Of a stretch of DNA of 64,000 nt, positions 6,680 through 63,293 are shown one piece after another. The stretch lies in assembly GCF_025370755.1 (NCBI RefSeq), contig NZ_JAMXFC010000003.1, positions 124,001 to 188,000 of the forward strand, given 5' to 3'. The stretch's first letter is position 1. Each line of letters starts with the position of its first letter. The stretch is from Laspinema sp. D2d. GTDB taxonomy: Bacteria; Cyanobacteriota; Cyanobacteriia; Cyanobacteriales; Laspinemataceae. The notes below the pieces were generated by a model that saw only the letters and a list, made by a program, of their open reading frames with translations, ran no database searches and had not been told where the DNA came from. Made by a program: the position numbers and the translations under genes.

Positions 6680-6693
6680 CCAAAAGTGGCTCT

Positions 6694-37241: not shown

Positions 37242-37304
37242 GAGCGTACACCTCGGATTTTTTGCGTGACGTCCAACTACAGGTCAAGAGCGAACACGAG
37301 TGTT

Positions 37305-39378: not shown

Positions 39379-39385
39379 CTCAAAC

Positions 39386-46241: not shown

Positions 46242-48266
46242 TTATTTAACCGTCTCAATACTGCGGGTCTTATTCGTCATCCGGCTCAAGAAAATCTGGA
46301 GCACACTGCGTTTGCCAATTTTAATATTACCTTGCACTGCCATACCAGACTGGAGACTGACTTGCAGTCCATTATCCAACAAAAACTTTTCACTATCTAA
46401 AGTAATCGTTGCCGGGAAGGCATAAAAGCGTCGAGTTTCATCGGGAGGCAACACATCCGAACCAATCGAGGTGAGGACACCCCGAACCGTACCATATTCC
46501 GTAGCTGGGAAGGCTTCAATACTAATCTCAACCGGCACTCCCGCTTGACCATCTTCTTGACTCTTCCGCAGAGCATCTAACACCATCGCAATATCTTGGT
46601 TTTGGATGTAAACCGATGCTTCCAACTCATTATTTGGAACAATTTTTAAGATCGCTTCCGGGGATTGAGCAAGGGTGACATATCCAGGAGAATTGGGTTT
46701 CAAATCAAACACATACCCATCAACCGGAGCCTTGAGTTCTTGATATTGGAGTTCCAGATTAGCCTTAGCTAACTGTCCATCAATTTGGGAAATTCGCTTG
46801 TCATTTTCTAGTTTTAAGCGGCTGAGTTGTCCATTGATATCCGCAATTCGTTTTTGATTGTCGGCGATGCGGGTTAACACATCGCGCTGGGAAATGGCGC
46901 GGGTATTTTGGACCTCTTGACGCGATCGCGACATCGCCACATTCAGCCGTTCTTGTTCACTCAAGAGGCGATCGACCTCTCCAGAACGAGACAGCACTTC
47001 ATTTTGCAGGCGCAAAATTTCTCCTTCCCTTGCGGCAATCTCATTTTCAGCCCGTAAAATTTCTGATTCCCGCGACCCAATTTCATTTTGAAATCGCAAC
47101 AGTTCCTCTTCCCGGCGGGCAATCTCATCTTCACTTCGCAGGACCTCCGCTTCCCGCGAGGAAATTTCATTTTGCTGGGTTAGAATTTGGGCTTCCTGGG
47201 CGGCGAGTTGTTGCTGACGACTCAATAATTCCGCTTCCCGGTTAGAGACTTCCGCTTGAGAGCGCAAAATTTCTTGTTCCTGGCGCTCTTCTTGCAGTTC
47301 AGACAATGCCCCTTCTGCCACCACAGGTTGAATCCGGCCCATAATACTTTGATTGACTGCCAGACCCTGTTTTGCGGTTTCCAGTTGTGCTAGAGCCGTA
47401 GGAATTTGGCGACGGGCGGTTTCGAGTTGTTCCAGGGCCCTGGGTAATTGGCGACGGGCATTTTCTAACCGTTCCCGCGCCTTCGGCAGGTCTTGTTTAG
47501 CATTTTCTAGCCGTTGTTGCGAGGCTACATATTGTTGTCTAGCATTCTGTAGTTGGTCAATCACATTAGGCAATTGCCGCTGCGCAGTATCTAATTGTCT
47601 GCGGGCGGTTTCTAATTGTCCTTGGGAGATGGCAATTTGACCTTGAACGTTAGGAATTTGATTGTTCACCTGGTTGAGTTGTTTTTCCAACTCATCTACT
47701 CGCAAGGAAACTGATTGTTCCCGAGACTGAGATTCATTTCGAGAAGCGATCAGCAATTGCTGTTGATTGAGGTCGAAATCCCCTCCATTGCTGGCGACAG
47801 CGGCCCCATTGAGTTGTGCTTGTAAAAATTGAGTTTCAGAAATTAAATTGGCTCGGAGTTTGGTCAGATTTTCCAGTTCTGAACCCGATTCACCCACGGT
47901 ATTCCCACTGAGTGCCGCTGTAAAAAACTGGTTTTCTCGCATCAAGGCATCTCGTTGTTGCTTGAGAGACTCAACATCCGCTTCTGGACTGGTCGGGTCC
48001 AAGGTTACCAAGAGTTGGCCTTTTTTTACCAACTGGCCGCCTTTAACGTGAATTTCGCGCACCACACCACTGGTAGGGGGTTTCACTTCAACGACAGCAC
48101 CTTGGGGTTCTAATTTACCCGAGGTGGGAACAGATTGATCGATTTGCGCCCAAGCAGCCCAAGCGACGCCCGAAGCGGTCATCCCCATAATTAACCAGAT
48201 GAAGACACTAGACCAAATCGGGGGGCGTTCTAAAATAACAGGTTGGTCGAAAACTGCTGATTTCAT
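46242..48266 (-). CDS. HlyD-family periplasmic adaptor of a type I secretion system
   Basis: This 674-residue protein is longer than the usual 400-480 for HlyD adaptors. A short cytoplasmic start (about 1-17) and one membrane helix (about 18-38) are followed by the first lipoyl half (VEVKPPTSGVVREIHVKGGQ, about 62-80). A very long coiled coil (about 95-530) shows obvious internal repeats such as QLETARRQ and the EI(x)SREAE(I/V)LR series. The second lipoyl half (YVFDLKPNSPGYV) and a beta-barrel domain follow, ending near residue 674. It bridges the inner-membrane ABC exporter and an outer-membrane TolC-like channel not encoded here. It is co-oriented with and 135 bases after the exporter gene. 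Confidence 0.9.
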   Translation of the reverse strand: MKSAVFDQPVILERPPIWSSVFIWLIMGMTASGVAWAAWAQIDQSVPTSGKLEPQGAVVEVKPPTSGVVREIHVKGGQLVKKGQLLVTLDPTSPEADVESLKQQRDALMRENQFFTAALSGNTVGESGSELENLTKLRANLISETQFLQAQLNGAAVASNGGDFDLNQQQLLIASRNESQSREQSVSLRVDELEKQLNQVNNQIPNVQGQIAISQGQLETARRQLDTAQRQLPNVIDQLQNARQQYVASQQRLENAKQDLPKARERLENARRQLPRALEQLETARRQIPTALAQLETAKQGLAVNQSIMGRIQPVVAEGALSELQEERQEQEILRSQAEVSNREAELLSRQQQLAAQEAQILTQQNEISSREAEVLRSEDEIARREEELLRFQNEIGSRESEILRAENEIAAREGEILRLQNEVLSRSGEVDRLLSEQERLNVAMSRSRQEVQNTRAISQRDVLTRIADNQKRIADINGQLSRLKLENDKRISQIDGQLAKANLELQYQELKAPVDGYVFDLKPNSPGYVTLAQSPEAILKIVPNNELEASVYIQNQDIAMVLDALRKSQEDGQAGVPVEISIEAFPATEYGTVRGVLTSIGSDVLPPDETRRFYAFPATITLDSEKFLLDNGLQVSLQSGMAVQGNIKIGKRSVLQIFLSRMTNKTRSIETVK

Positions 48267-48292
48267 GGGTTTTAGGAGCTAGGTTTTACGAA

Positions 48293-48370
48293 GGATGGGG
48301 GATGGGGAGAATTGGGGGATGGGGATGGGGAGGATTGGGGAGAATTGGGGGATGGGGGAGATGGGGGATT
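48293..48370 (-). repeat. C-rich low-complexity spacer between exporter and HlyD genes
   Basis: On the minus (coding) strand this reads as irregular tandem units of CCCCCATC and CCCCAATTCTC, about 8-15 bases each. Similar spacers lie at 60109-60157 and 61041-61103, each with the C-rich strand in the sense of the flanking plus-strand gene transcripts. Confidence 0.7.
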
Positions 48371-48401
48371 TGGCCCTCATCTCTGATTTTGCCCCTTTCT
48401 C

Positions 48402-51400
48402 CTAGACTTGGGATTCCTGTTGTTGATACAGGCAATAGTAGAGACCTTTGAGGGCCATTAATTCATCGTGGGTGCCTTGTTCTACTACCGCGCCTTGGTC
48501 CATCATGAGGATGACATCAGCTTTTTTAACAGTCGTCAGACGGTGGGTGATGAAAAAGACCGTGCGACCCTTAAAGGCTTCGGCTAGGTTTTCACAAACT
48601 AGACGCTCGGAATTGTAGTCCAGGGCGCTGGTGGCTTCATCCAAAATGAGCAGATGGGGATTTTGGAGGACCGTCCGGGCGATCGCAATCCGTTGGCGCT
48701 GACCCCCAGATAACGAGGAACCCCTTTCTCCGACAATGGAGTTATACCCATTAGGCAGGGTCATAATAAACTCATGGGCAACCCCAATTTTGGCCGCTTC
48801 AATAATGTCATTGGTGGCGGCATCGGGATTAGTCAAGGCAATATTGTCCTGAACGGTCCCATTAAACAGGAGGGTATCCTGAAGGACCACGCCGATTTGA
48901 CTCCGCAGGGAATACAATTCCACCTTAGAAACATCATAGCCATCGAGTAAAATCCGACCCCCCGTCGGTTCATAAAGCCTCTGCAACAGCTTCATCAAGG
49001 TACTTTTACCCGAACCACTTTGACCGACAATGCCGACAAATTGCCCCGGTTGAAACTCCAGATTGATGTTCGCCAATTGGAGCGATTTACTCTGGGGAAA
49101 GTGGAAGGAAACATTTTCAAATCGGACGGCCCCCTGTACCGCAGGCATGGGGATATTGCTGCGGTCCTTGTCATCCGCCTCGGGATGGGCTTCTAAGATA
49201 TCCCGCAGACGTTCCACAGACATGGCAGTTTCTTGGAAGGTTTGCCAGACTTGCACGAAGCGCAGCAGGGACCCGGTGACATTGGAGGCGATAATGCGGA
49301 AGGCGATCAACTGACCCAAGGACATTTGGGGAGGGTCACTGAGCACTAAATGAGCACCGACCCAGAGCAGGGCCAGACCGGAGGCTTTATTGAGTAAGGT
49401 ACTGATGGAACTGGCGGTGGTGGAGGTGACGACGGTTTTAAACCCCGCGCTGATATAGCGAGCATAGCGATCGTACCAACTCCACCGGGAGGTAAGCTCG
49501 ATATTTTGGGCCTTCACGGTTTGAATCCCGGAGAGGACCTCGACGAGATAGGACTGGGTATCCGCGTAACGCTCCGCCCGTTTGCGTAACAGCCGTTGGA
49601 CAATGGGCGACACCCCGGCGATTAACAGGGCCATCAGGGGGACCACTGCCAGAGCAACGGCGGTCATTAACAGGCTATAGGAGAGCATGACGGCGATATA
49701 AATCACCGAAAATAAGGCATCGAGAACAACGGTGAGGGCGGTCCCGGTGAGGAATTGGCGAATTTTTTCTAGTTCACTCACCCGTCCGGCGAGTTCACCG
49801 ACACGCCGTTGATCGAAGTAGCCGAGGGGGAGTCGCAGCAGGTGATCAATGACCTGGGACCCGAGACTCAAGTCGATTCGGTTGGTGGTGTCTACGAATA
49901 AATAGGTCCGTAGCCAGGTGAGGGCCCCTTCAAATAGGGCAACTAAAACCATTAGTAAGCCCAGGATATCCAGGGTTTCTAGGCTTCTTTGACCGATGAC
50001 TTTATCGATAATCACCTGGGTGATTAGGGGGTTGGCTAACCCAAATAGTTGAACGAAGAAGGAGGCGAGAAAGACTTGGACTAGGACACTTTTATATTTG
50101 CCGAGTTCGGGGAGGAACCACCAAAAGTTAAAGGTATCTTGTTTGTCTTCTGCGGGAGGGACGAGGAGGAGGACCTGTTCCGTGCCTTCTTTGCCGTCTT
50201 CTGTGGGGGTGACGAGTTGCCACTCCTGGATAAATTTTTGGGGTTTGCGGCGAATGATGCCTTTGGAGGGGATGGCGGCAACGACTTCGCGATCGCTGAC
50301 GCTGAATAAGAGGGCAAAGCTATTTTCCCAGCGAATCATCGCCGGTGCTTTGAGGCGGGAGAGGACTTCTACCGGGACGGTGACCAACTGCCCGTTAAAT
50401 CCCATCATGGCGGCGACGGACCCACAGGATTGCAAGGTCAGTTTGCCGTGGGAGTTATACTGATTTTCCAAGACGCGCTGAACGACGTCACGGCGCACCC
50501 GAATTTGGTATTGTTTCCCCAACATTTGGAAACAGGCCAAAGACCCTTGAATCGGGCCTCTTCCCCGGATGAAGGGATATTTAACTTTGCCCCGTGGGGT
50601 GTTCTCTTCGGCTTCCATCACCGGGGGGCGATCGGGAGCGTAGGGAATGGGGTCCACCACCGTCGGGGTGACAGGGGCCATCGGGGCGATCGCGCTATGG
50701 GAGTCGGCGATCGCCCCCCGATTGTCCTGGGGATTTACCGGGGTTCCGGCCAAATCAAACAAGGGTAAGCCTACGACTCTAGCCCCGTCCGGACAAGGGA
50801 GCTTGCCAATGGTGTTGGCATCCACTATCAAGCGGCTGCCTCGCTCCAATTCACCCAGGGTTCCGCTACTGAGAAACCAGAGGTGATGGCGATCGAGTTC
50901 CGTGAGATTAGCTTTCCCTTTGGGGAGGTTAAGGACAACGGTCTGGGGTTGAAATTGTAGGGTTAAATCTTTGGCATTTGTAGTCGCATCGGCTCGGCGC
51001 TGAAGTTCCCCGGAGAGCATCTCAAATATCTCATTCAGGGCAGCTTGTTGCTCAAAGGCTTCTCGAAATACCTTTTCCGATTTCACCTGCTCTAAGAAGG
51101 TACTGGCGCGGATGCAGACACAGATCACTTCCCGGGAGGAGATCGCACTGTCTACCGCCACCCCTCGCACCAAGCTCCCCCACCCGAGAATTTCTCCCGG
51201 ACCGGCTAACCGCAAACTAACCATACTTTGGCTGCGTTGGTCGTATGCCAATTCCCGCACCTGGCCCTCATAAATCACCGCCACTTGAGTCGGCATTTTA
51301 CCCAACTCAAAAATTGGTTGACCCGTCCGATAGCGCAACAATTCGCAATGGGTAGCCAGATTCTCCAAGGCCCGATCGCCGAGGCGATCAAACGGGGCCG

Positions 51401-51449
51401 TTTTCTTTAAAAATTCTGAAATTTGAGAGAGATCGATCGTTGATGTCAT
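48402..51449 (-). CDS. Type I secretion ABC exporter with cNMP-like and degenerate C39 domains
   Basis: This protein has 1015 residues. Residues about 13-145 form a cyclic-nucleotide-binding-like fold, but the phosphate-cassette Glu and Arg are replaced (GEILGWGSL ... VDSAISS), so cAMP binding is doubtful. A second partial regulatory stretch and linker follow. At about 300-425 lies a C39 peptidase-like domain (GPIQGSLACFQMLGKQY) in which the catalytic Cys, His and Asp positions are Gly, Ser and Ile, so it is a docking domain without peptidase activity, as in HlyB. Six helices (about 455-740) and the ATPase follow: Walker A GQSGSGKSTL near 810, signature LSGGQRQRIAI near 913, Walker B LLILDEATSAL. 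It exports unfolded C-terminal-signal proteins. Confidence 0.92.
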   Translation of the reverse strand: MTSTIDLSQISEFLKKTAPFDRLGDRALENLATHCELLRYRTGQPIFELGKMPTQVAVIYEGQVRELAYDQRSQSMVSLRLAGPGEILGWGSLVRGVAVDSAISSREVICVCIRASTFLEQVKSEKVFREAFEQQAALNEIFEMLSGELQRRADATTNAKDLTLQFQPQTVVLNLPKGKANLTELDRHHLWFLSSGTLGELERGSRLIVDANTIGKLPCPDGARVVGLPLFDLAGTPVNPQDNRGAIADSHSAIAPMAPVTPTVVDPIPYAPDRPPVMEAEENTPRGKVKYPFIRGRGPIQGSLACFQMLGKQYQIRVRRDVVQRVLENQYNSHGKLTLQSCGSVAAMMGFNGQLVTVPVEVLSRLKAPAMIRWENSFALLFSVSDREVVAAIPSKGIIRRKPQKFIQEWQLVTPTEDGKEGTEQVLLLVPPAEDKQDTFNFWWFLPELGKYKSVLVQVFLASFFVQLFGLANPLITQVIIDKVIGQRSLETLDILGLLMVLVALFEGALTWLRTYLFVDTTNRIDLSLGSQVIDHLLRLPLGYFDQRRVGELAGRVSELEKIRQFLTGTALTVVLDALFSVIYIAVMLSYSLLMTAVALAVVPLMALLIAGVSPIVQRLLRKRAERYADTQSYLVEVLSGIQTVKAQNIELTSRWSWYDRYARYISAGFKTVVTSTTASSISTLLNKASGLALLWVGAHLVLSDPPQMSLGQLIAFRIIASNVTGSLLRFVQVWQTFQETAMSVERLRDILEAHPEADDKDRSNIPMPAVQGAVRFENVSFHFPQSKSLQLANINLEFQPGQFVGIVGQSGSGKSTLMKLLQRLYEPTGGRILLDGYDVSKVELYSLRSQIGVVLQDTLLFNGTVQDNIALTNPDAATNDIIEAAKIGVAHEFIMTLPNGYNSIVGERGSSLSGGQRQRIAIARTVLQNPHLLILDEATSALDYNSERLVCENLAEAFKGRTVFFITHRLTTVKKADVILMMDQGAVVEQGTHDELMALKGLYYCLYQQQESQV

Positions 51450-51467
51450 GATGAAACAAACCTGCGC

Positions 51468-52208
51468 CTAACCCGCGATAGACTGCAATGACCCGACTTT
51501 TTGCACCTGTTCTCGCCACCAATTTTCAAACATCTCGTCGATTAATTGCCGACGCATATTGTCATCCAGTTGGGCTGGAATAAATTTTTCTAATCGAATA
51601 ATCACGAACCATATATCCAATTGTCGAGGCGGCCAGAGTTGCCCCGGTTGACTAATCGATAACAGTTTACCAATCAAGGGATGGGGTTGAGAAACCGCAA
51701 CGGGTCCCAGCAATCCCCCAGTTCGGCTTTCTGGGCCTTTTGAGTATTCGGCAGCCGCATCTGCAAAGCTTTGTTCCCCTTCCGAAATCCGAAAATAGAT
51801 TTCTTGGGCTAACCCCGCATCCTGAGTGCGAATTAAGGAGTAAACAACTTTATCCAGGTCGCTTTTGCGGGTCATAAAATAACTTTGAACTTTTGGCCCC
51901 CAGGTTGTTGTCTTGAATTTTTCTATCAATATCTGTCGCACTACAGACTCCTGCATCTGTTCTTCCGTCATGCCTTGGCTTTTCAGCCACGCCTCCCGGA
52001 TTTCGGGGGAGGTGAGCTTTTGCTGCACAGCAAAGTCTTCAAGCGCTCTTAAGCGTTCTTCATCGCTTGCCGTGATCTTCGCCTCGGCTATTCCTTGATC
52101 TAGGACAACACCCCGACAAAATTGCACATCTAACTGATACCGCTTTAATAAGGCGGGTATGTCTTGGGCTTTAATCGTTATGTCGCCAACTTGGAAAAGG
52201 TCACTCAT
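51468..52208 (-). CDS. Parvulin-type peptidyl-prolyl isomerase of the secretion operon
   Basis: I use ATG 52208 (246 residues), with GAGG six bases upstream; the frame opens two codons earlier at TTG. No signal peptide is seen. A helical N-terminal part (about 1-120) resembles SurA/PrsA chaperone regions, and the rotamase domain (about 125-220) contains QSFADAAAEYSKGPESRTGG and LGPVAVSQPHP. In cyanobacteria such genes often sit next to type I exporters. Being probably cytoplasmic, it may keep the substrate unfolded or help engage the exporter. It is 18 bases upstream of the exporter gene, hence first gene of the operon PPIase-exporter-HlyD. Confidence 0.85.
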   Translation of the reverse strand: MSDLFQVGDITIKAQDIPALLKRYQLDVQFCRGVVLDQGIAEAKITASDEERLRALEDFAVQQKLTSPEIREAWLKSQGMTEEQMQESVVRQILIEKFKTTTWGPKVQSYFMTRKSDLDKVVYSLIRTQDAGLAQEIYFRISEGEQSFADAAAEYSKGPESRTGGLLGPVAVSQPHPLIGKLLSISQPGQLWPPRQLDIWFVIIRLEKFIPAQLDDNMRRQLIDEMFENWWREQVQKVGSLQSIAG

Positions 52209-52686
52209 GTTCAACCTCTACAAGACCACAAATATAACCAATCCTAGTTGGCATTGCCAGCACTTTTTGTTTCCTGAATTGAATTTTGGTTTAGGTTTTG
52301 GGCAATTGGGTGATGCTCTCCCCTCATAAACAGCCGGTCAAACTCACTGGGATGGCAGTCTTGGAACGGGTTGATATAACCTTACCCGTTCGGGCAAGAT
52401 GAAGGAAAATACCTAAGATGCAGGATGAACCTCATCCGGAACATTCCGTTCATCGTTTATCCCCTCGTTAAGCGTTGATCCTGTTGTTGTCTGACCCTTC
52501 CCGATTGCCGTTGCTGCCCTGAAAAAAAATTTGACTGCTCTTTACTATCTTAGTAGATAGGCTGTTGAGTTCTCTCTACGACCGGGGACGCTAGTCAACC
52601 GGGATTGGTTTCTTTAAACAGGTTGCCCAACTTACCCCTGTCATACTACTTTCTGCCTCCCTAGGCTATTTTTCCTTGACCTGGAT
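52209..52686 (-). promoter_or_regulatory. Upstream region of the type I secretion operon
   Basis: This 478-base gap between the end of the large fusion gene and the PPIase gene has no credible ORF on either strand. It must contain the operon promoter, but no -10/-35 pair stands out. CTATCT-TAGT-AGATAG (52545-52560) is a small perfect dyad. Confidence 0.35.
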
Positions 52687-55600
52687 TCAATTGGAGTTTT
52701 GAACCAGTTTTTCCAAGAGTGTGCCGATTTTAGCGGAATAAGCACGGGTATCCATACAGGGACCTGTTGTAGGGTGAAAACTCTGCTGTAGTTGCTCCCG
52801 ATACTGTTGCCGTTGTTGCGGGTTCGTCCCTAGGGAAACCGCTAACTCAATGTAAGCCGATTCACTCAGGGCAATCCATTGTTCAAGCTGCAACTCTCGC
52901 AATAGGGCAGACGATCGCCGAGTTTGTGGGGCTTCCCCCTCGCGAACCACTACCGGCAGTCCCACTTCTAACGGATCGATTAGGGATAAATCCCCGGTAT
53001 CCGGGTAAGCGTCTAAATACAGATCTGCTTGCTGCAAACTATCTTTGAGCTCTTCTAAAGAATTTAACTGCTCAATGACTACGAACCGCTTAGGGTCAAT
53101 TCCATATCGCTGCAATACCATTTGGGTGTGATTATCGTAGGGACTGGTGCGATAAAATTTGGCCCCCATTCCTCCAAAGGGATATAACACTAAGATCGAA
53201 TTAGGCACGGCTGCCAAAATTTTGGCCCAGGTTTCTCGAATCTGAGGACCGATTTTGTTGGTACTCGCCCCGGAAATGAAGATCACAGTTTCCTCGGAAG
53301 TCCCCCACCGATGGCGCGTGGGTTGAATTCGCTGTTGTTCCCCGGGTTGGGGTCGCTTAAAACAGAGTCCAGACCCTTCGACTGTCACGACTTGTTCCTG
53401 ATAGTAGTTTTGGAAGCTGGGTCCTGCCATTAAATCCCCGGTAATGTAGTAATCCATCTGGCGCAGTCCCGTGGTACTGGTTACCCAAGCCCCAGTACAT
53501 TGGACCCTCGCCAAGCGGTGGCAAGCTAATAAGGCGATCGCCGTGGTATGACTGCTAATGTCGCTGCCAATGAGCAGAATATCCAACTGATCCCCGCGAA
53601 TTTTCTCCACTTGTTCCCCCAATTTCTGGGGTAGCTGCACTAAGCGATCGGCACAATTTTGGCAGGTTTGTTGCAAGGGGGTCTCTTGAACGGCGATCGC
53701 ATACAACCGCACTTCAAATTTCTGTCGGTCTAAATGCTCAAAAGCAGCCAAAGTGACCACTGTTTCTTTAGCGGCAAAAAAGTTATGTTGCAAAATTCCC
53801 AGGCGAATTTTCTCCCGAGACGGGGGACGAGGGGGACAGTCATAATCCAGGTTCAGCCCTAAATTTTTTAGGGTCAATTCCAGAATTTCTCCTCGTTTTT
53901 GGGCAATTTCCAATCGATTCTCTTCCCAGGCGGATAGGGCTTTAAAATTATGGGATTGGATAAAACATAAGGCAATATACCGCCAGAGGTCTGAATTGGG
54001 ATTTTGGAACAAATGGGAATGGAGATAATTGACCAATCCCTTAAGGGAGTGAAAGTATTGTTCTGGTTCTCCTAGTTCCGAAAATGCACTGGGTGCTGCA
54101 AATAAAAATTGCCAAAAATCCGCGACAAACCATTTGGGAATTGCCGCGCCATTATAAGAGAAGGAAAGTTGATAAGCATCCTGATATAACATCGCCACGA
54201 GAAAGGATTGCATCGCTTTGGGCTGATCCAATCGCGGGCTAATCTCTGACTTTAACTGTTGGACTAACTCTCTTTCACGGTCCGTCAAGGGTTCATTTTT
54301 TATCCCTTTATCCAGGAGTATTTTTGCATCGATACCCACGCCACTCAAATAGCTGAGTTTCAGTTGATCGCCGGTTAAACTTAACCAGCGATCGGCAATT
54401 TGCTCTCGCAGGGGTCGCAGACAGGCGGGTTCATACTTCCTCGGCACTTTGGCATCATGTAAGATCGGTTCACTATTCCAAGGGTCATAAGGAATCAGGG
54501 ATTGAGCGGACAATTGGGGACGCATGAAGCAATTTCCCCGCCGGTTAAGCATGGAGGCGACAAAGGAAAAGGTGCTGTTAGAAATCGCTAGAATATCGCA
54601 GTGACTTAATAAGTAAAAATCTGGATAAAAGTCAGCTTTTGGTAATGCGGCCCCCAGGGATTTAGCGGTAACGGGTTGATATTCGGCAAAATGAGGCAGG
54701 ACTTTTTCCGGTTCGTCACTGGCAATGAATAAAACAGGTTGCTCTAGGGTATCCCAGATTTGGGTTAACCAGGTTTTATACCAGATAAGAGGGGCGATGA
54801 AAAAGTAGGAAAAGCCATAATCTTTGAGTCGGATATGTAATCCGACAATGGTTTTGCCTTGGGAAAGCAGGCGATCGCGCACCGGGTCCAGTTGTTGTTT
54901 GACCTCAATGACAGGTTCAAACCAGCCATAAAACTTGTCTTTATAGGCGGCATAATATTGAGTATGAAACTGAAAATATCCCCAAATGTCAACATTTTTC
55001 AAGGGGTTTTTCCGTTGCAAAATTGGCGAGTCATCGGCGCGGGTACTGACATCTTTGACTTCAGGTAAATTTTTAGACAAGGGGGGGTCTTGATGTCCAA
55101 ATAAATACTGTCCAATCCATTCGGGAGTTTCTATCCGCAGATGATGGGTTTCAGCGTAAAGTTTCAAAAACCCATACTGAAAAAGTTGATTGGCAAAGCG
55201 TCCATTAGTACCCAGGGTAGATAGGGTAATTAAGGGCTTTTTAACATAAAACGCATCTCCCCAAGAAGGATGATAGGGGGTGACGGTAGCAACGCGCTCA
55301 AAGTCAGATTCGGCTAATAATTCATCAATTTTGTCAATTAACTGCGTCCCTTCATACAGTTCTTCGTAATTGACTTCGGTATTAATGGCTTCAATATTTT
55401 GCAGCAGATTTTTGGCCCCTTGGAGGGCCAAAAATTCTGCCCCCTGGATATCTAAGTTCAATAGATTAAAATCTGCCGGATTTAAACCTAATTCTTCCAC
55501 GAGGGTATCCAAGGTTTTAGATTGGACCTGAATTTGATGGGTTTCTCGAATCTCAGGATAATAGTCTTTAACCCGTTTCAAGGGTAAAATAGAGCTGGCT

Positions 55601-57426
55601 GCATCCATTGATGTGACGTGCAAAGTTGCAGTTCCATTAATATTGGAGATGGCACAATTTACGCCAATCAGGTTAGGGACGCCTATTAAATTGGTTTTTA
55701 AGACTTGAAAAACGGCTGGATTGGCTTCAATAAATAAAACCTTATTAATGCCAATTTCCTGATAAATTTTAAGTTCTTCACCTTCATTTGCCCCTACATG
55801 AATGACTCCCCGAGGGGTGATAGAATGCTCCTCTAAGAGTTGGGATAAATCCAACATTTTCGGGTCAGAATTAGAACGCTTTGGAGTAGAGAAAATCTCA
55901 GGTTTGAGAGAATTTTTGGAAATTTTTTGGGGATAAAGACTAGAAATAAACCCTTCTAAATCATCTAAATTTAAAGCATTAGAGAGCAGCGTTGTACAAA
56001 CTTGAGGGAAACTTTTAACGACGGAAAACGTTTGGATTGGTGCGACTAAAGAACGATTGATGGTCGGAAAAGGTCCAGGGACATCATGGAGAACGACTAC
56101 CCCTTGATCTGCTAATAGGGTATGGGCTAGTTCTAAACAGATATTGCGAACGGGACAACCCGGATAAGTGTGGCCTTTGATGGTTACTTCGTCCTGGCGA
56201 TCGCCTGCATCGACAAAAATAATATCAAAATAGCCTGGGCCATATTTCATGGGATATTCACAATACTCTAAAATCTCGGATTCAGTCCAGCAATGTCCCC
56301 CTAAATAGGCTTTTCCTTCTTCACTTTTGACCTCAATTAATCGATAGTCAATGTCAATCCCTTGAGCGGATTTGACGATAGGTGCAAATTTTTCATACCA
56401 CCCCGCATTGTCCTCAACGGACACGACCTGCTGACAGACTAATGATTTGATAAACTGCTCAGTGTTACATCCGGGTCCATACTCTAAAACCCTCAAGGGA
56501 CGGCCTTTTATTTTATACTGATGAGCAATGACATAGGGCAGAATATATTTAAAGGAATGGACAATTTTGGAGGAACCTAGAGTGACTAAACTTTCAGCTA
56601 ATTTTTTGGAATAATTGAGATAAGGCTGACAAAGGGTGTCTAAGTTAATTTGGGAGGTAATGTGGCGAGTTTTGCAGGCGATCGCATTACCGACATGGGA
56701 CAGGGGATGAAAAATATCTGCAAAATTAGTAATTTCTTGCAGTGAAAAAGAGCAAGGACGAGGCAACTCCCGGTCAATCAGGACTAACCATTCATATCCT
56801 AGATCTTTTAGTACCTCTAAACAATCCAGGGTACTTTGAAAATATTTGGGGTTCCATCCCCCTTCCTGACTCTGGCGATCGCCTCCTCCCCCATATTCAA
56901 ATTGCACCAAACTCGGTAATGTTTGGGGGGGAATCTCCCGCAATCCATTAATAATGCCAAATTCGCTGCCTTCTGTATCAACTTTTAAGATAGAAAGCCG
57001 TTCAATTGCCCGATTTTGTAGTAAAGTTTTTAAAGTAAACGCAGGCACATTCAGGCTGGTGGGGGTTCTTCTTTGCCGGAAAGAATCAGATTCTTGCGGT
57101 TTGACTACTCCCCACCAATCCGGATTTAAGGAGTTCAAATTGACATTAAGCTGACCTTGGTATTCCCCCAAATACAGGGTGACTTCCCCATTTTTTTCAG
57201 CGATCGCCGCTTGTTCCAGAGGCACATTCAAACGCTGACAAGTGACCCGCAACTCCTCTACGGGGGCGGGTTCCACTGCCAAAGTGGGAAAACCCGCTTT
57301 GACAAAATCTACAAAATAATAATCCTGGGTTCCCACCCCAATTTCGATCGCCGTCCCCTGACGTTCTGGATCTAAAATTGTGGCAAAGGTCGTCATTAAC
57401 TGTCGTGAACAAGCCTCAAACTTCAT
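52687..57426 (-). CDS. Giant methyltransferase-glycosyltransferase fusion protein
   Basis: This 1579-residue protein has no membrane helix or signal. Domains in order: FkbM methyltransferase 1 (about 1-255; AIEIGVGTQDYYF, SILKVDTEGSEF); a class I SAM methyltransferase (about 285-500; RVLEYGPGCNTEQF, DIIFVDAGDRQDE); FkbM methyltransferase 2 (about 535-730; GVIHVGANEGEELKIYQEIG, NLLNLDIQGAEFLALQGAKN); a GT11-like fucosyltransferase-type domain (about 733-1000; GRFANQLFQYGFLKLYA, VGLHIRLKDY, ISNSTFSFVASML); a helical linker (about 1020-1215); and an OGT/SPINDLY-like GT41 half (about 1220-1579; GASTNKIGPQIRETW, YLDAYPDTGDLSLIDPLEVG). It could build and methylate a short glycan on protein or lipid. 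Its start lies 22 bases from the divergent gene at 57449. Confidence 0.85.
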   Translation of the reverse strand: MKFEACSRQLMTTFATILDPERQGTAIEIGVGTQDYYFVDFVKAGFPTLAVEPAPVEELRVTCQRLNVPLEQAAIAEKNGEVTLYLGEYQGQLNVNLNSLNPDWWGVVKPQESDSFRQRRTPTSLNVPAFTLKTLLQNRAIERLSILKVDTEGSEFGIINGLREIPPQTLPSLVQFEYGGGGDRQSQEGGWNPKYFQSTLDCLEVLKDLGYEWLVLIDRELPRPCSFSLQEITNFADIFHPLSHVGNAIACKTRHITSQINLDTLCQPYLNYSKKLAESLVTLGSSKIVHSFKYILPYVIAHQYKIKGRPLRVLEYGPGCNTEQFIKSLVCQQVVSVEDNAGWYEKFAPIVKSAQGIDIDYRLIEVKSEEGKAYLGGHCWTESEILEYCEYPMKYGPGYFDIIFVDAGDRQDEVTIKGHTYPGCPVRNICLELAHTLLADQGVVVLHDVPGPFPTINRSLVAPIQTFSVVKSFPQVCTTLLSNALNLDDLEGFISSLYPQKISKNSLKPEIFSTPKRSNSDPKMLDLSQLLEEHSITPRGVIHVGANEGEELKIYQEIGINKVLFIEANPAVFQVLKTNLIGVPNLIGVNCAISNINGTATLHVTSMDAASSILPLKRVKDYYPEIRETHQIQVQSKTLDTLVEELGLNPADFNLLNLDIQGAEFLALQGAKNLLQNIEAINTEVNYEELYEGTQLIDKIDELLAESDFERVATVTPYHPSWGDAFYVKKPLITLSTLGTNGRFANQLFQYGFLKLYAETHHLRIETPEWIGQYLFGHQDPPLSKNLPEVKDVSTRADDSPILQRKNPLKNVDIWGYFQFHTQYYAAYKDKFYGWFEPVIEVKQQLDPVRDRLLSQGKTIVGLHIRLKDYGFSYFFIAPLIWYKTWLTQIWDTLEQPVLFIASDEPEKVLPHFAEYQPVTAKSLGAALPKADFYPDFYLLSHCDILAISNSTFSFVASMLNRRGNCFMRPQLSAQSLIPYDPWNSEPILHDAKVPRKYEPACLRPLREQIADRWLSLTGDQLKLSYLSGVGIDAKILLDKGIKNEPLTDRERELVQQLKSEISPRLDQPKAMQSFLVAMLYQDAYQLSFSYNGAAIPKWFVADFWQFLFAAPSAFSELGEPEQYFHSLKGLVNYLHSHLFQNPNSDLWRYIALCFIQSHNFKALSAWEENRLEIAQKRGEILELTLKNLGLNLDYDCPPRPPSREKIRLGILQHNFFAAKETVVTLAAFEHLDRQKFEVRLYAIAVQETPLQQTCQNCADRLVQLPQKLGEQVEKIRGDQLDILLIGSDISSHTTAIALLACHRLARVQCTGAWVTSTTGLRQMDYYITGDLMAGPSFQNYYQEQVVTVEGSGLCFKRPQPGEQQRIQPTRHRWGTSEETVIFISGASTNKIGPQIRETWAKILAAVPNSILVLYPFGGMGAKFYRTSPYDNHTQMVLQRYGIDPKRFVVIEQLNSLEELKDSLQQADLYLDAYPDTGDLSLIDPLEVGLPVVVREGEAPQTRRSSALLRELQLEQWIALSESAYIELAVSLGTNPQQRQQYREQLQQSFHPTTGPCMDTRAYSAKIGTLLEKLVQNSN

Positions 57427-57448
57427 CGGATTAAAGCCTAAAATTTCT

Positions 57449-58318
57449 ATGCGGATCCTATTTACTTTGGCTCACTTTTTCAACCCGGATGGGATTGGCA
57501 AGTATGGTGCGCAACGCAACGATCCCAACCCGCGCATCCAAGCATTGACCCAAAACCTAACCGCATTGCACCAGTTATTTGGTAACTTTCAGTACGCCAC
57601 GGATTATGCCAAGCGGGTTGCGATAAGCGCCAATCAATCTCTACAGACCGAAATTGAGATTGTGATTTGCACTACCCAAGGCTACCATATTCTCGATCGC
57701 CTTTCTATGCCCTCTCATTTATGGGCCCATCACCCCACGGATGCCGAACCGCTGCTGCTGGGATTTGAATGTCAGGCACTCTTGAAAGAACGCTTAGGCG
57801 GGTATGATTATTACTGTTTTCTGGAAGATGACCTAATTTTGCAGGACCCCTGGTTTTTTATCAAGTTGAATTGGTTTACCCAACAAGCAGGCGATCGCCA
57901 TCTCCTCCAACCCAACCGCTATGAACAATCCACCCACCGAGGCATCGGCAAAACTTACATTGATGGAGAACTACACCCCCAAATTACTGCACCCTATCAA
58001 AATGTTAGAGAATCCCCGCAACTCACTGGCATGATTATGGGGAAATCTGTCACCTTTCAGCGCACTTGCAATCCCCATTCTGGCTGTTATTTCTTAAATG
58101 CCCGCCAGATGGAATACTGGGTGCAGCAACCCTATTTTTTAGACCGTGATACTCGGTTTGTAGGTCCGTTGGAAAGTGCAGCGACCCTGGGGATTATGCG
58201 GACGTTTAAAGTTTATAAACCTGCACCGCCGATGGCTAATTTTTTGGAGGTGCAGCATTTTGGGAGGGTTTGGAGTGAAAAAATTGGGAAGTTAGTGAGG
58301 TGGGAGGGGGAGATTTGA
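57449..58318 (+). CDS. Putative GT-A-like glycosyltransferase (paralogue 1)
   Basis: I start at ATG 57449 (289 residues), because RILFTLAHFFNPDG aligns with KILVTIAHYFNPDG at the start of the paralogue at 60168. An upstream open frame from 57380 overlaps the fusion gene. No named family is recognised with certainty. The segment YYCFLEDDLILQDPWFFIKLNWF, with its acidic EDD triad, resembles the metal site of GT-A glycosyltransferases. NPHSGCYFLNARQMEYW and GPLESAATLGIMRTFKVYKP are shared with the paralogue. No signal or membrane helix. It begins 22 bases from the divergent giant fusion gene and is 58 bases before the methyltransferase fusion. Confidence 0.7.
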   Translation: MRILFTLAHFFNPDGIGKYGAQRNDPNPRIQALTQNLTALHQLFGNFQYATDYAKRVAISANQSLQTEIEIVICTTQGYHILDRLSMPSHLWAHHPTDAEPLLLGFECQALLKERLGGYDYYCFLEDDLILQDPWFFIKLNWFTQQAGDRHLLQPNRYEQSTHRGIGKTYIDGELHPQITAPYQNVRESPQLTGMIMGKSVTFQRTCNPHSGCYFLNARQMEYWVQQPYFLDRDTRFVGPLESAATLGIMRTFKVYKPAPPMANFLEVQHFGRVWSEKIGKLVRWEGEI

Positions 58319-58376
58319 ACCCCGGATTACACGGATTTTAACGGAAGAGATTTATAAAAAAAGGGAGGGATAATTT

Positions 58377-60080
58377 ATGACTGATTTTGATTATTATGAC
58401 CGGGTGAATCCGGATTTATTGAAGGTTTTACCGGCAGATGCGGCAATGATTATTGAGGTGGGCTGTGGTGCCGGGGCGATGGGGATGCAATATAAGCGGA
58501 TTAATCCTCATGGGCGTTATATTGGAGTAGAAATTAATCAAGAAGCAGCCGCAGTGGCGGCGCAACGGTTGGATGAAGTAATTGTTGCGAATGTTGAAGA
58601 TTTGGAGGATAAGCAGCTACAGTTTGAGCCTGGGTCTGTTGATTGTTTGGTGTATGGGGATGTGTTGGAACATTTAGTTGATCCGTGGCGGGTTCTCCAG
58701 CATCAGGTGAAGTGGTTGAAGGATGAGGGTCAAGTGTTGGCTTGTATTCCTAATATTCAACATTGGACGGCGATTGTTAATTTGTTGCGAGGGAGTTGGG
58801 AGTATCAGAACCAAGGGTTGCTCGATCGCACTCATTTACGATTTTTTACGTTAGATGAGGTGAAAAAGTTATTCCTTCAGGCAGGGTTACAAAGTTATGA
58901 AATTCAAACTCGCGGACGGAAACCCCCGGCTTTTCAACAGTTCCAGCAGTTAATGGCTCCAGTAGTTCAAGGGTTAGGAATTGACCCGAAAACGTTTGAA
59001 ACTCAAACGGGGGCGATTCAATATGTGGTAAGAGGAATTAAGTCGGAAATACCGCCCAGACGGCTGTTAATTCAAACGATTATTATGGCCCCAACAGGGT
59101 GCGATCGCCCTCGGGTATTAGAACCCGATCGCCTCAGTGCGACAATTCCAGGGGTGCGAACCATTTCGGAGGTGCGATCGGCCAACTTGAATGCTGCACT
59201 CCCTCAAGAAGAAAAGGTTTTTATCTGGCAACGGACCATTATGGACTATCCCGAAGATGTGGTCAAACTCAAACAACTGTTGCAATTAGGCTATTTAATT
59301 ATTGCCGAAATTGATGATGACCCCCTGCGCCGTCCGGAATATGAAAAAAATCTGTTTCTGAGTTATCGCGGTTGTCACGGCGTGCAAACTTCTACGGAAC
59401 CCTTGGCGGATTTTTTACGCCAATATAATCCCAATGTAGCGGTCTTTAAAAATCAATTGGGCTATTTACCACCGAAACGAACCTACCCTGATGACCCGAC
59501 TTGTACTATCTTTTTCGGGGCGCTCAATCGCGAGGCAGATTGGCAACCGATTATGACAGAGTTAAATCGGGTTCTGCAAAAATACAAGAAACAGGTGCAA
59601 GTGAAAGTGCTGCACGATCGCCAGTTTTTTGAGCAGTTACAGGTCAAGAATAAAGAGTTTTTACCCTTTTCTCCTTATGAAACTTATCAGGAGGTATTGC
59701 ATAGTTGTGATGTCGCTCTGCTACCCCTGACCCCAACTCGGATTAATAGTATGAAGTCGGATTTAAAGTTTCTCGAATGTGCCGGTCATGGGGTGGCCGT
59801 GATCGCGAGTCCAACAGTCTATGAAAATACGATTATTGAGGGAGAAACTGGGTTAATTTATCGCTCAAAAAAGGAATTTGGTCAAAAGTTGGAGTCTTTA
59901 ATCCAGGATCTGGATTTGCGCAGGGGTTTAGGGCAGAATGCTTATCAGTGGGTGGCTAAAAATCGCCTGCTATCTCAACATTACCGGGAACGTCACCAGT
60001 GGTATTTGTCCCTGCGCGATCGCCTCCCTGAGTTAAATCACGAATTGCGCGATCGCCTACCGGAGTTGTTTGAAGATTAA
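58377..60080 (+). CDS. Methyltransferase - glycosyltransferase fusion protein
   Basis: This 567-residue protein has GGGAGG eight bases before its ATG. Residues about 1-205 are a class I SAM methyltransferase: [20 protein letters not shown] as motif [13 protein letters not shown] typical of small-molecule methyltransferases. Residues about 225-535 look like the donor half of a GT-B glycosyltransferase ([52 protein letters not shown]). The C-terminus carries a duplicated RDRLPEL heptad. It probably methylates and glycosylates the same acceptor. It lies between the two paralogous genes at 57449 and 60168, all on the plus strand with short gaps. Confidence 0.8.
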
Positions 60081-60108
60081 TAGGCAAACAATCACCCAAA
60101 AAGCTCTT

Positions 60109-60157
60109 CTCCCCCATCCTCCCCATCTCCCCCGTCTCCCCCATCCCCTCCATCTCA
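60109..60157 (+). repeat. C-rich low-complexity spacer
   Basis: Irregular units of CCCCCATC, CTCCCC and CCGTCTCC fill the gap between the methyltransferase fusion and the second paralogue. The type is the same as at 48293-48370 and 61041-61103. Confidence 0.65.
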
Positions 60158-60167
60158 ATTTATCTAT

Positions 60168-61034
60168 ATGAAAATACTCGTCACGATCGCGCATTATTTC
60201 AATCCCGATGGCGGAGGGAAACATGGTTCTCTCAGCAAAGACCCGCGATCGCGGATTGTGGCATTGAGTCAGTCTTTAACCCACTTAGCCGCAATTTTAG
60301 GGAAATATCAAGGGGTACTAGATATCGCTAAATCTCTAGCAGTCCCAGCAAATCAGGGTCAGTCGCTGGATATTGATATCGTGATTTGTACCACTCAAAA
60401 CCGTCATGTTTTAGACGATTTGCCGGTTCCTCATCAGATTTACAAGCATCACGCCACCCAAGCGGAACCCTTGATGCTGGGGTTTGAATGTCACGCCCTG
60501 TTGCGGGATAGTTTGGGTCGCTATGATTATTATTGCTATATGGAAGATGACCTGATCCTCCATGACCCTTGGTTTTTTATTAAATTAAACTGGTTTTCCT
60601 CCCAAGCGGGAGATTTGAATCTGTTGCAACCCAATCGCTATGAAATTTCGCCTCCGGGTCGAGTGGGTAAGGTCTATATTGATGGAGATTTATTACCTAG
60701 AGCAACGGCCCAGTTTCAGAAGGTCGAGGACCGACCGGAATTGAAGGGAAATATCATGGAGCAACCTGTACTGTTCCGGCGATCGCTCAATCCCCATTCC
60801 GGTTGCTTTTTTCTGAATGCTAAACAGATGGCCCATTGGGCGTCACAACCTTATTTCTTAGACCGCGATACCAGTTTTATCGGCCCCTTGGAAAGCGTTG
60901 CCACTCTAGGCATTATGCGAACCTTTAGAATCTATAAACCCGATCCGACTTATGCAGGATTCCTAGAAATTCAGCACTTTGGGACTGCATTTCTCAACCT
61001 GATTGGTCGAGGCATCAATATCTCCCCGGGATAA
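60168..61034 (+). CDS. Putative GT-A-like glycosyltransferase (paralogue 2)
   Basis: This 288-residue paralogue of the protein at 57449 aligns end to end with it and is closely similar, so a tandem duplication around the fusion gene is likely. Shared blocks include VIVICTTQ-type IDIVICTTQNRHVLDDL, YYCYMEDDLILHDPWFFIKL with the acidic EDD triad, NPHSGCFFLNAKQMAHW and IGPLESVATLGIMRTFRIYK. Differences cluster in residues 180-200 and at the C-terminus (ends INISPG against WEGEI). No signal peptide. It is the last plus-strand gene before the convergent RTX gene, with a C-rich spacer and the RTX terminator between. Confidence 0.7.
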   Translation: MKILVTIAHYFNPDGGGKHGSLSKDPRSRIVALSQSLTHLAAILGKYQGVLDIAKSLAVPANQGQSLDIDIVICTTQNRHVLDDLPVPHQIYKHHATQAEPLMLGFECHALLRDSLGRYDYYCYMEDDLILHDPWFFIKLNWFSSQAGDLNLLQPNRYEISPPGRVGKVYIDGDLLPRATAQFQKVEDRPELKGNIMEQPVLFRRSLNPHSGCFFLNAKQMAHWASQPYFLDRDTSFIGPLESVATLGIMRTFRIYKPDPTYAGFLEIQHFGTAFLNLIGRGINISPG

Positions 61035-61040
61035 TATAAA

Positions 61041-61103
61041 GCCCCATCTCCCCCATCTCCCCCATCGTCCCCATCTCGATGGCGGTCTCCCCCATCCTCC
61101 TCT
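61041..61103 (+). repeat. C-rich low-complexity spacer
   Basis: Units such as CCCCATCT, CCCCCATC and CGTCCCCATCT lie between the second paralogue and the RTX gene terminator. Similar spacers occur at 48293-48370 and 60109-60157. Confidence 0.65.
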
Positions 61104-61116
61104 AACCCCAACAAAA

Positions 61117-61145
61117 GAGCCACAGATGTTATTCATCTGTGGCTC
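61117..61145 (-). terminator. Rho-independent terminator of the RTX gene
   Basis: GAGCCACAGATG (61117-61128) and CATCTGTGGCTC (61134-61145) form a perfect 12-bp stem with a 5-base loop. On the minus strand the stem is followed by TTTTGTT. It lies 30 bases past the RTX stop codon. Confidence 0.85.
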
Positions 61146-61175
61146 AATCGTTACGAGGCGTTTAGATTAAGCGCC

Positions 61176-63293
61176 TTAGAACAGGAATATGTCATTCCGG
61201 GTAATCGCACCACTGCTGACGACCGCAATAGTTACGATTTCATCGGGATTGTTCCGATCACTCGGGGCCGCACCATTTTTATCCCAGAGCAAGAATCCGC
61301 CTTGATCTTGGGCGTCGAAGATGATCGCCGAAGTGGTACCAGTGCCACTGATCAAGTTCTCGAAGCTACCCGTGTAGGTGGTGGTTTTATTGGTAGAGAA
61401 GAAGTCGATGTTGGTCCGGAGTCCAGCGATCGCCTCAGAGTCTAAAGCATAGCCTGTGAGGTTGAGGTAGATTTTATCTCGACCACTCTCGAAGCTGGTG
61501 ATAGTATCACCCGGTGTTGGAGTTCCGGCGCTAACGTTGCCGCTATCATCACTGGTGACCCCATCACGGGCATCTGCGATACTGCCGAATAGGAAGGCAT
61601 CGGCTGCACCACCGGTTCCAATCAGGCTGTCTGCACCCCAGAACCCTTCCAGAGTATCCAAGCCGGGAGTATCTGCCCGGAGGGTATCTGCTTCGTCACT
61701 ACCCGTGAGGAAGTCATTACCAGTACCGCCCATCAGGGTATCATCAGCGCTACCAGCAACCAGCACGTTATCGCCGGAGACTGCCATGAGCAGATTTCCA
61801 CCACCACCATCCTTGGCGTAGAGGGAGTCATTGCCTTCACCACCGATCAGGGTATTGTTTGCGCCACCCTCTCCCAGGATCAGGGTATCGCTACCTTTGT
61901 CGCCAGATAGATAAGAATCTATTCCCGATGAAGCGATGGAATCGTTATCTTGACCACCGTACAGACTTACGGCTTCGGCTGTACCGACCAGAGAGTCGTT
62001 TCCTTGGTTACCAAAGCCAACGCTAGAGGCCCCACCGAGGGATAACAGGTCCAGATTGTTCCCGGCGATCGTGTCGTTGTCTTCGATGTTGCCACCAATC
62101 AAGGTATCGCGAATGCCGGTACTCAGGAGAGTATCGTTGCCTTTATCTCCATACAGGAGGTTAGTGCCGCCACCCAGGGTTGTGTCACCCGTGACCAGGG
62201 AGATACCGGAAACCACGGTGTCATTATCTTGTCCACCATATAAGGTGCTGCGAGTGAACCCGTAGGTTTCTAAATAGTCTACGCCAGTATTACCGAACAC
62301 TAGGACTTGGCTACCTCGGTTGAAGAGGGAATCATCCCCCTCAGCCCCGATCATGGTCTGACGTCCGCGATCGCCCCCGGAGGAGTAGATGTAATCGCTC
62401 CCGGTTCCGCCGTTTAACCAGTTGTTACGAGGGTATCCTGCGAGTGCGCGTTGCGCCCCTTCTACAGTGTTGACTCCATCTTCCTCTAACCCGAGCTCTA
62501 GGGGAGCATCTTTACTAAGCATGAACAGGGAGTCGTTTCCTTCGCCCCCGAATAGGCTGTCGCGATCGCCGATCCCAAAGATGACGTCGTTGCCTTTGTC
62601 ACCGCTGAGATAGTTGCGCCCAGGGTTTCTGGGAACGGCAACGCCGTCTTCTACAACGACGCCCACTCCTAAGCCTGCTGTTGCACCTGCGCCCGATCCA
62701 CCGCCAAATAAGAACGGAGGAACGAAGCCAATGCCACCAATGGTATCCGGAACGAAGGCCGCACCTCCACCCCCGGAACCTGAGCCACTACCGGCTATTT
62801 CAATAACCTGGATGGTATCGTCACCGATACCACCGTAGAGGGTATCCGCACCTAAGCCGGAGCCACTGATGAAGTCATCTCCGCCGTTTCCAAAGGCGAG
62901 GTTGCCCCCAAGACCGTTACCAAAGTTGAAAATATCATCGCTGTCTTCTACCCGGTTTTCGGATTGGTTGTTGGTGCCACCGTAAACCGTGTCGCGACCT
63001 AAGCTGCCTCGGGCTTCATAGCGATCTTGCCCTAAGTCACCAAAGAAGACGCTTCCGCCCCCTTTGCTCACCAAAAAGTCATCGTCTTGACCCCCATAAA
63101 GGGTGTCTCCTGATGTGCTTGAGGTCAGGGAATCATTTTCTGTATTCCCAAAAATTAAACTCCCACCGACGGTATCGGTGGTAATAAAATCACTTCCCGT
63201 TAGGCCCACAACCGTATCTGCGCCTAGGCCAAACGAAAATAAATCTAGGGTATCGTTCGGATTTACCGGGTTTGTATCGAGTATTCTAACCAT
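61176..63293 (-). CDS. RTX-type calcium-binding repeat protein, type I secretion substrate
   Basis: This 705-residue protein is acidic, rich in Gly, Asp, Asn and Ser, without cysteine-rich parts, and has no N-terminal signal peptide. From about residue 25 to 560 it is built from more than twenty nonapeptide-like repeats of the GGxGxDxL type and close variants (LYGGQDDDFL, GDKGNDVI, GGEGNDSL, GNTENDSL), which fold as calcium-binding beta rolls. A Gly/Ser loop near 165-200 and a non-repeat C-terminal domain (about 590-705) end in AITRNDIFLF, like C-terminal type I signals. The likely exporter is the operon at 46.2-52.2 kb. Resemblance to oscillin, the Ca-binding surface glycoprotein of gliding cyanobacteria, is by type, not by proven homology. 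AGGAG lies about twelve bases before the ATG. Confidence 0.88.
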   Translation of the reverse strand: MVRILDTNPVNPNDTLDLFSFGLGADTVVGLTGSDFITTDTVGGSLIFGNTENDSLTSSTSGDTLYGGQDDDFLVSKGGGSVFFGDLGQDRYEARGSLGRDTVYGGTNNQSENRVEDSDDIFNFGNGLGGNLAFGNGGDDFISGSGLGADTLYGGIGDDTIQVIEIAGSGSGSGGGGAAFVPDTIGGIGFVPPFLFGGGSGAGATAGLGVGVVVEDGVAVPRNPGRNYLSGDKGNDVIFGIGDRDSLFGGEGNDSLFMLSKDAPLELGLEEDGVNTVEGAQRALAGYPRNNWLNGGTGSDYIYSSGGDRGRQTMIGAEGDDSLFNRGSQVLVFGNTGVDYLETYGFTRSTLYGGQDNDTVVSGISLVTGDTTLGGGTNLLYGDKGNDTLLSTGIRDTLIGGNIEDNDTIAGNNLDLLSLGGASSVGFGNQGNDSLVGTAEAVSLYGGQDNDSIASSGIDSYLSGDKGSDTLILGEGGANNTLIGGEGNDSLYAKDGGGGNLLMAVSGDNVLVAGSADDTLMGGTGNDFLTGSDEADTLRADTPGLDTLEGFWGADSLIGTGGAADAFLFGSIADARDGVTSDDSGNVSAGTPTPGDTITSFESGRDKIYLNLTGYALDSEAIAGLRTNIDFFSTNKTTTYTGSFENLISGTGTTSAIIFDAQDQGGFLLWDKNGAAPSDRNNPDEIVTIAVVSSGAITRNDIFLF

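Follow-up and report, generated by a model that had tools for sequence, protein, structure and literature searches.

A conserved cyanobacterial locus that may well glycosylate and export an oscillin-like RTX surface protein

The closest described counterpart of the locus reported here is oscillin, an RTX-repeat protein of the gliding filamentous cyanobacterium Phormidium uncinatum. Its standing as a surface glycoprotein linked to gliding dates from 1997 (Hoiczyk and Baumeister); it is 646 residues long, with 46 repeats and a high degree of glycosylation (PMC3034196). Oscillin fibrils have been reported in Microcoleus (PMC7251104), and Phormidium sp. KS is without a close oscillin homologue, with identity of at most 34% (PMC4284469), a level that the fast-evolving RTX class described below would also give if oscillin belongs to it. 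Two further RTX surface proteins are relevant: Sll1951, the S-layer protein of Synechocystis PCC 6803, which has 1741 residues (PMC3034196) and is exported through the HlyB/HlyD/TolC components Sll1180/Sll1181 and Slr1270 (PMC11594277), with no clustered glycosylation locus described in the literature examined; and SwmA of Synechococcus WH8102, a surface glycoprotein needed for motility (PMC3034196), which at 130 kDa serves swimming rather than gliding and is likened to the protein studied here by description, not by sequence. Nor did we meet, in the same literature, a description of oscillin's glycosylation and export genes. Here, we analyzed a stretch of 64,000 nucleotides (hereafter the window) from the 6.6-Mb genome of Laspinema sp. 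D2d, corresponding to positions 124001-188000 of contig NZ_JAMXFC010000003.1, in which genes for a type I exporter, several glycosyltransferases (GTs) and methyltransferases (MTs), and an RTX protein lie together. The reading that we favor, with modest confidence, is that this locus makes, glycosylates, and exports one oscillin-like surface glycoprotein of a gliding filament. A full-text search on RTX, type I secretion, and gliding in filamentous cyanobacteria, judged by titles and abstracts, returned no publication on it.

An initial annotation of the window had described this block of exporter, transferase, and RTX genes, and the observation holds: the eight genes that it named are intact open reading frames (ORFs), their domains are mostly as described when searched against Pfam and NCBIfam, and seven other genomes of the Laspinema group have the same genes, matched in length, up to where their contigs end. 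The gene calls were right except for the start of the first GT-A-like paralogue, now placed at 57449, and for the end of the locus, which continues beyond the window to a gene at contig position 188176 for a GT41 protein with tetratricopeptide repeats (TPR-GT41). The components inside the window are as follows:

46242-48266, minus strand: HlyD-type membrane fusion protein (PF13437, 60.3 bits; TIGR01843, 189.7 bits, just under the cut-off of 208.65)
48402-51449, minus strand: HlyB-type ABC exporter (ABC_membrane, ABC_tran, and Peptidase_C39; TIGR01846, 716.3 bits, cut-off 725.55)
51468-52214, minus strand: PpiC-type peptidyl-prolyl isomerase (PF00639, 31.4 bits)
52687-57426, minus strand: 1579-residue fusion with two FkbM domains (113.5 bits), a GT41 domain (75.7 bits), and a GT11-like stretch
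57449-58318, plus strand: GT-A-like paralogue P5, 59% identical to P7
58377-60080, plus strand: methyltransferase-GT4 fusion, MT-GT (Pfam Methyltransf_12 and Glyco_trans_1_2)
60168-61034, plus strand: GT-A-like paralogue P7, conserved more widely than any other partner of the RTX gene
61117-61145, minus strand: possible terminator hairpin directly 3' of the RTX gene (12-bp stem and T run)
61176-63293, minus strand: 705-residue RTX surface protein with a locus-specific N-terminus (PF00353, 100.1 bits)

Evidence that these genes belong together comes from their conservation and linkage, both of which are directly observed. Within the genus, the order HlyD, HlyB, PpiC, fusion, P5, MT-GT, P7, RTX, TPR-GT41, and GT1811 (an 1811-residue protein beyond the window) is complete, collinear, and on one contig in five other genomes, and two more agree to their contig ends; the neighborhood comparison that the initial annotation had proposed as a check thus found the block strictly syntenic. 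A smaller core, with the RTX gene tail-to-tail with P7 and followed by PpiC, HlyB, and HlyD, recurs in the families labeled f2 (the Microcoleus family), f5, and f6, all of Microcoleaceae type, and f20, and also in f32, where a fused MT-GT/P5 gene stands in place of P7 (all family labels were assigned by a tool). The same core is found in named Trichodesmium, Okeania, Hormoscilla, and Oscillatoria loci; Nostocales loci join RTX, PpiC, P7, and usually HlyB; and a PpiC orthologue accompanies the exporter throughout the loci compared. In f20, which includes Oscillatoria princeps and Oscillatoria PCC 10802, the compact order TPR-GT41, RTX, P7, PpiC, HlyB, HlyD, RmlC, RmlD, RmlA, GT2, GT4, GlmM, HpsL, HpsN is that of the window minus the fusion gene and a histidine kinase gene. 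Within Laspinema's own family, genome G009 (genus g3) has RTX, P7, MT-GT, TPR-GT41, and the exporter within 25 kb, the same gene set lies in two blocks in G012 and three in G010 and G011, and in G013 the RTX gene stands by itself; RTX and TPR-GT41 are neighbors in four of the five genera of this family and in f20. Among named loci with enough flanking sequence, an RTX gene lies within 4 kb of P7 in 29 of 64, and PpiC or HlyB lies within 10 kb in 35 of 64.

Kinship inflates all of these counts. What counts as independent evidence is that the arrangement recurs in several families, that the RTX protein belongs to a class defined by its N-terminus (see below), and that parts are joined in gene fusions, of which two kinds were found: a PF12000 GT4 joined to PpiC in Nostocales and a P5-type gene joined to MT-GT in f32. 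Because the same arrangement occurs across several families, beside genes for gliding slime, the exporter, the RTX protein, and the sugar enzymes are probably one system, which would build the sugar-coated surface of the filament. A chance neighborhood was rejected, given the strict synteny in the genus, the recurrence of the core order in four more families, and the lack of such neighbors around the other RTX ORFs of this genome. The initial interpretation of one conserved locus therefore survives, but two of its parts are not supported as first worded, namely the large fusion as a core component and methylation of the protein. RTX gene and exporter are also unlinked in some relatives, so that their linkage is common, not universal.

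The RTX protein itself has a mass of 71.4 kDa, an acidic pI, no cysteine, and 14 strict GGxGxDxxx calcium-binding nonapeptide repeats. In agreement with the first description, no N-terminal signal peptide is recognizable by eye, and the conserved C-terminus of its family ends in DIxxF. Since repeat-rich RTX proteins match everything in BLAST, we classified by an N-terminal signature; generic RTX similarity was rejected as proof of orthology, as repeat-rich proteins outscored the true partner. Built from RTX proteins of Laspinema's own family, a profile of the first 57 residues hits, at 20-46 bits and inside residues 1-80, 16 of the 18 RTX proteins that are linked to the locus in other families, and the best of the 24 other RTX ORFs in this genome reaches 16.5 bits, away from its N-terminus. 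When refined and applied to 195 genomes, the profile delimits a class scoring at least 54 bits, with one member per genome in 37 genomes and the next score at 44, so that the locus RTX proteins form what is, by this signature, a distinct class with an N-terminus of its own. P7 is present in 72 of the 195 genomes, including all 37 that have the class (Fisher P = 4e-20, without kinship correction), and in 25 of these 37 the two genes lie within 13 kb of each other. In contrast to this class, none of the 24 other RTX ORFs of the genome has P7, MT-GT, TPR-GT41, or a close HlyB beside it. Identity of the RTX protein within the genus is 74-86%, versus 84-98% for most of its neighbors, a faster divergence that fits a surface-exposed protein, which is expected to vary. 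The protein also holds 14 NxS/T sites; these were rejected as evidence of N-glycosylation, being a product of the repeat motif (GNDS/T).

The comparison with oscillin, already drawn in the initial annotation, has gained weight. At 705 residues the window protein is longer than oscillin, at 646, and of similar size, but its N-terminal relative at the corresponding locus of an f2 genome (G067) has exactly 646 residues and a mass of 65,832 Da, and genes for hormogonium polysaccharide (hps) adjoin the locus. The published mass of oscillin is reportedly close to 65.8 kDa. The G067 protein has 27-30 repeats by a relaxed pattern, below the 46 of oscillin.

Just outside the window and divergent from the RTX gene, at contig positions 188176-190632, lies the gene for the 818-residue TPR-GT41, which has Pfam TPR and PF13844 domains and aligns lengthwise with SPINDLY and bacterial OGT. 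Its catalytic residues are a matter of direct observation: the equivalent of SPINDLY K665, essential in that enzyme, is kept in 17 of 17 sequences, that of H495, mutants of which are dead in SPINDLY, in 14 of 17, and the S496 equivalent is also present. The likeness to the SPINDLY/OGT enzymes of family GT41 extends to the TPRs, the fold family, and these three positions; the difference is that TPR-GT41 is bacterial, with a secreted RTX protein as its proposed acceptor. The gene is followed by one for a 95-residue DUF3288 protein (in L011, at 6659-6946), which is kept beside TPR-GT41 in other genera, and then by GT1811, with a GT2-GT4-GT4-GT41 architecture, beyond which lie a rhamnosyl O-methyltransferase and CDP-deoxysugar genes. 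Homologues of GT1811 (L011:7047-12482, G002-G008) swap their N-terminal GT domains and range from 1262 to 2674 residues, and the far-end cassette of the locus holds CDP-sugar genes in three genomes of the genus, pyruvyltransferase/TylF-type genes in three, and neither in one. Together, the variable cassette and the variable GT1811 N-terminus suggest that the glycan varies between Laspinema species.

Of the enzymes inside the block, the 1579-residue fusion was among those named in the initial annotation. Its FkbM and GT41 domains are borne out, but the GT11-like stretch is weak (18.7 bits, under the 23.9 cut-off), and the GT41 C-terminus has alanine at the column of SPINDLY H495 while keeping the essential lysine; a third stretch resembles a methyltransferase by visual inspection only. 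Because the active-site histidine is absent, the GT41-like ends of both the fusion and GT1811 are probably not OGT-like in function. The fusion is intact at 1573-1592 residues in eight genomes of the genus, for which reason an assembly artefact was rejected, and it is found at full length only there, for which reason it was rejected as a core component. The partners shared across families are instead the GT-A-like gene, PpiC, HlyB/HlyD, and TPR-GT41, with a PF12000 GT4 as a further shared partner in other families. This GT4 is single-copy in the nine genomes checked; it lies directly upstream of the RTX gene in f2, f5, and f32, near the locus in f20, and on another contig in Laspinema.

The methyltransferase-glycosyltransferase fusion is confirmed by Pfam. 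P5 and P7 had been called GT-A-like, a call that finds no sequence match in Pfam, NCBIfam, or PDB but agrees with a structure model of moderate confidence (pLDDT 66.7), the best PDB matches of which are GT-A folds (E 8.5e-4, TM about 0.4), with BoGT6a and the collagen glycosyltransferases LH3 and COLGALT1 among the structures that it resembles. For the methyltransferases, the earlier suggestion of protein methylation fares poorly: because enzymes of the FkbM, RMNT_CmcI, and TylF families adjoin rhamnose and other deoxysugar genes, it is more likely, judging from family and context, that they methylate sugars rather than protein.

The exporter pair of ABC and HlyD proteins with its own peptidyl-prolyl isomerase was correctly recognized. 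The TIGR01846 match of the ABC protein spans nearly the full model, just short of the cut-off, and its N-terminal domains are a cNMP-binding domain and a degenerate C39-like domain; the C39-like match begins at profile position 15 and the cysteine is replaced, by eye, which points to an inactive-type domain. No signal peptide was seen in the PpiC protein. No outer-membrane channel gene lies beside the exporter pair at the locus, and TolC-type channels (OEP) are encoded by two genes elsewhere in the genome, on contigs C3 and C56.

On the other side of the exporter, the window contains genes for gliding polysaccharide and sugar donors, which score above NCBIfam cut-offs wherever an equivalog exists, and a kinase gene:

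28845-30053, minus strand: HpsP, hormogonium polysaccharide glycosyltransferase (equivalog NF038295, 662.8 bits, cut-off 550)
30139-31311, minus strand: HpsO glycosyltransferase (NF038298, 729.5 bits, cut-off 575)
31335-32327, minus strand: HpsN glycosyltransferase (NF038299, 620.4 bits, cut-off 425)
32407-34059, minus strand: HpsL, hormogonium polysaccharide biosynthesis (NF038300, 848.3 bits, cut-off 640)
34436-35992, minus strand: GlmM phosphoglucosamine mutase (TIGR01455, 562.6 bits)
36171-38207, minus strand: GT4 (36171-37241) and GT2-like (37305-38207) glycosyltransferases (Pfam)
38305-39465, minus strand: RmlA, glucose-1-phosphate thymidylyltransferase (TIGR01208, 506.6 bits)
41328-42278, minus strand: RmlD, dTDP-4-dehydrorhamnose reductase (TIGR01214, 365 bits)
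42194-42742, minus strand: RmlC, dTDP-4-dehydrorhamnose 3,5-epimerase (TIGR01221, 278.6 bits)
43078-46167, plus strand: hybrid histidine kinase/response regulator (NCBIfam histidine-kinase matches; class III cyclase-like C-terminus by eye)

The hps genes make a polysaccharide needed for gliding of Nostoc hormogonia (PMC13104615, PMC10581220), and orthologues of the N. punctiforme HpsL, HpsN, HpsO, and HpsP adjoin the locus here; the N. punctiforme set, as tabulated in PMC10581220, includes no RTX protein or type I exporter. HpsL is linked to HlyD and the rml genes in f20 as well, where RmlC adjoins HlyD; RmlC is near HlyD also in f2, f5, and f32. The GT4/GT2-like order beside RmlA recurs in f2, f5, f20, f32, and G009, and RmlD homologues begin about 27 codons downstream of the start called here.

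In the mechanism that we propose, the RTX protein would be synthesized in the cytoplasm, lacking a Sec signal, and TPR-GT41 would most likely attach the first sugar to Ser/Thr residues of this protein. The GT-A-like paralogues, together with the glycosyltransferase/methyltransferase fusions, may then extend and O-methylate a short, deoxyhexose-rich glycan, for which the Rml and CDP-sugar genes would supply the donors. PpiC would help the chain while it is unfolded, and export would run through HlyB/HlyD and a TolC whose gene lies away from the locus; outside the cell, calcium would fold the repeats, an oscillin-like layer would assemble, and the hps slime would run over it. What we infer is that the RTX protein is the acceptor, that it is glycosylated before export, in what order the steps run, and that the product serves gliding. 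The most specific version, in which a SPINDLY/OGT-type enzyme glycosylates the RTX cargo of a type I pathway while it is still in the cytoplasm, and the unclassified GT-A family of P5 and P7 lengthens the glycan, with O-methylated sugars, all before export, to form the oscillin-type gliding layer of filamentous cyanobacteria with a species-variable glycan, is put forward more tentatively, as somewhat short of an even chance. If the mechanism is right, the locus would provide at once an export and glycosylation gene set for an oscillin-type protein, tied to the hps slime genes; P5 and P7 would represent a previously unclassified putative glycosyltransferase family, open to assay; and the question whether type I exporters carry glycosylated cargo would have a concrete case.

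Several points weigh against this mechanism. The model assumes that a type I exporter lets a glycosylated chain pass. The RTX gene is unlinked from P7 and the exporter in Planktothricoides, in Oscillatoria SIO1A7, and in one f2 genus, and a large Nostoc clade has P7 with neither RTX nor exporter nearby. The unlinked state is concentrated in that one clade of the P7 tree, which fits an old linkage that was lost there. Further, many of the enzymes could serve the neighboring polysaccharide instead. This last point leads to the main rival, in which the glycosyltransferases and methyltransferases make a free polysaccharide (hps slime, O-antigen, or capsule) and the RTX gene and exporter are only neighbors in a gliding-surface region or regulon. 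It draws on hpsP/O/N/L, GlmM, GT4, GT2, and rml genes adjoining the exporter here and in f20, and on the CDP-sugar and pyruvyltransferase cassettes at the other end, which vary by species as in polysaccharide loci. However, the most compact f20 genomes have only RTX and P7 between TPR-GT41 and PpiC, TPR-GT41 belongs to a protein-glycosylating family and keeps its catalytic residues, Nostocales have a GT4-PpiC fusion, and P7 co-occurs with the locus RTX class; we consider the rival unlikely, at perhaps one chance in a few.

Type I secretion substrates pass the exporter unfolded, so that a bulky glycan might block passage, and the RTX protein could in principle receive its sugars only once exported, from a lipid-linked or surface enzyme whose gene lies elsewhere, with the locus enzymes building the donor. 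Yet no oligosaccharyltransferase, flippase, or O-antigen ligase was recognized in the block, and GT41 enzymes modify protein directly, which makes this improbable. More improbable still is a reading in which the local RTX protein is one client of many and the genes for export and glycosylation work chiefly for different cargo, either other RTX proteins or pilins. In its favor, the RTX ORFs of the genome number at least 25, versus two C39-bearing HlyB-type exporters, so that the exporter may carry other cargo, a point that also counts against our proposed mechanism; and the exporter is retained where the RTX gene has moved off in one f2 genus. Against it, the locus RTX class is the only one with repeated linkage to the exporter, and none of the 24 other RTX ORFs has neighbors of this kind.

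In that f2 genus (L284-L289), the RTX-class gene stands beside CobA/BtuR, and P7, MT-GT, PpiC, and HlyB are still together; a conserved gene of about 377 residues upstream of RTX in some f2 genomes was rejected as a partner, being CobA/BtuR itself. The Nostocales GT4-PpiC fusion (L186:6029-8086) lies between RTX genes and P7, and the unlinked PF12000 GT4 of the present genome (C38:37597-38103) is a candidate missing component. In G009, a 2579-residue protein with two-partner-secretion and CHAT domains is encoded between P7 and RTX (L113:7424-15163). The fusion and P5 are divergent, with 22 bp between their start codons (57426-57449), a spacing kept in the genus, and as a result each promoter must lie inside the coding region of the other gene. 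A third, orphan paralogue of the P5/P7 type, with about 50% identity, is found at C9:34993-35865 among unrelated genes. The hybrid kinase gene, between the exporter and the rml genes, is kept in the genus and in G009, and genes for an oligopeptide-type ABC binding protein and permease lie at 24878-27673, beside the hps end.

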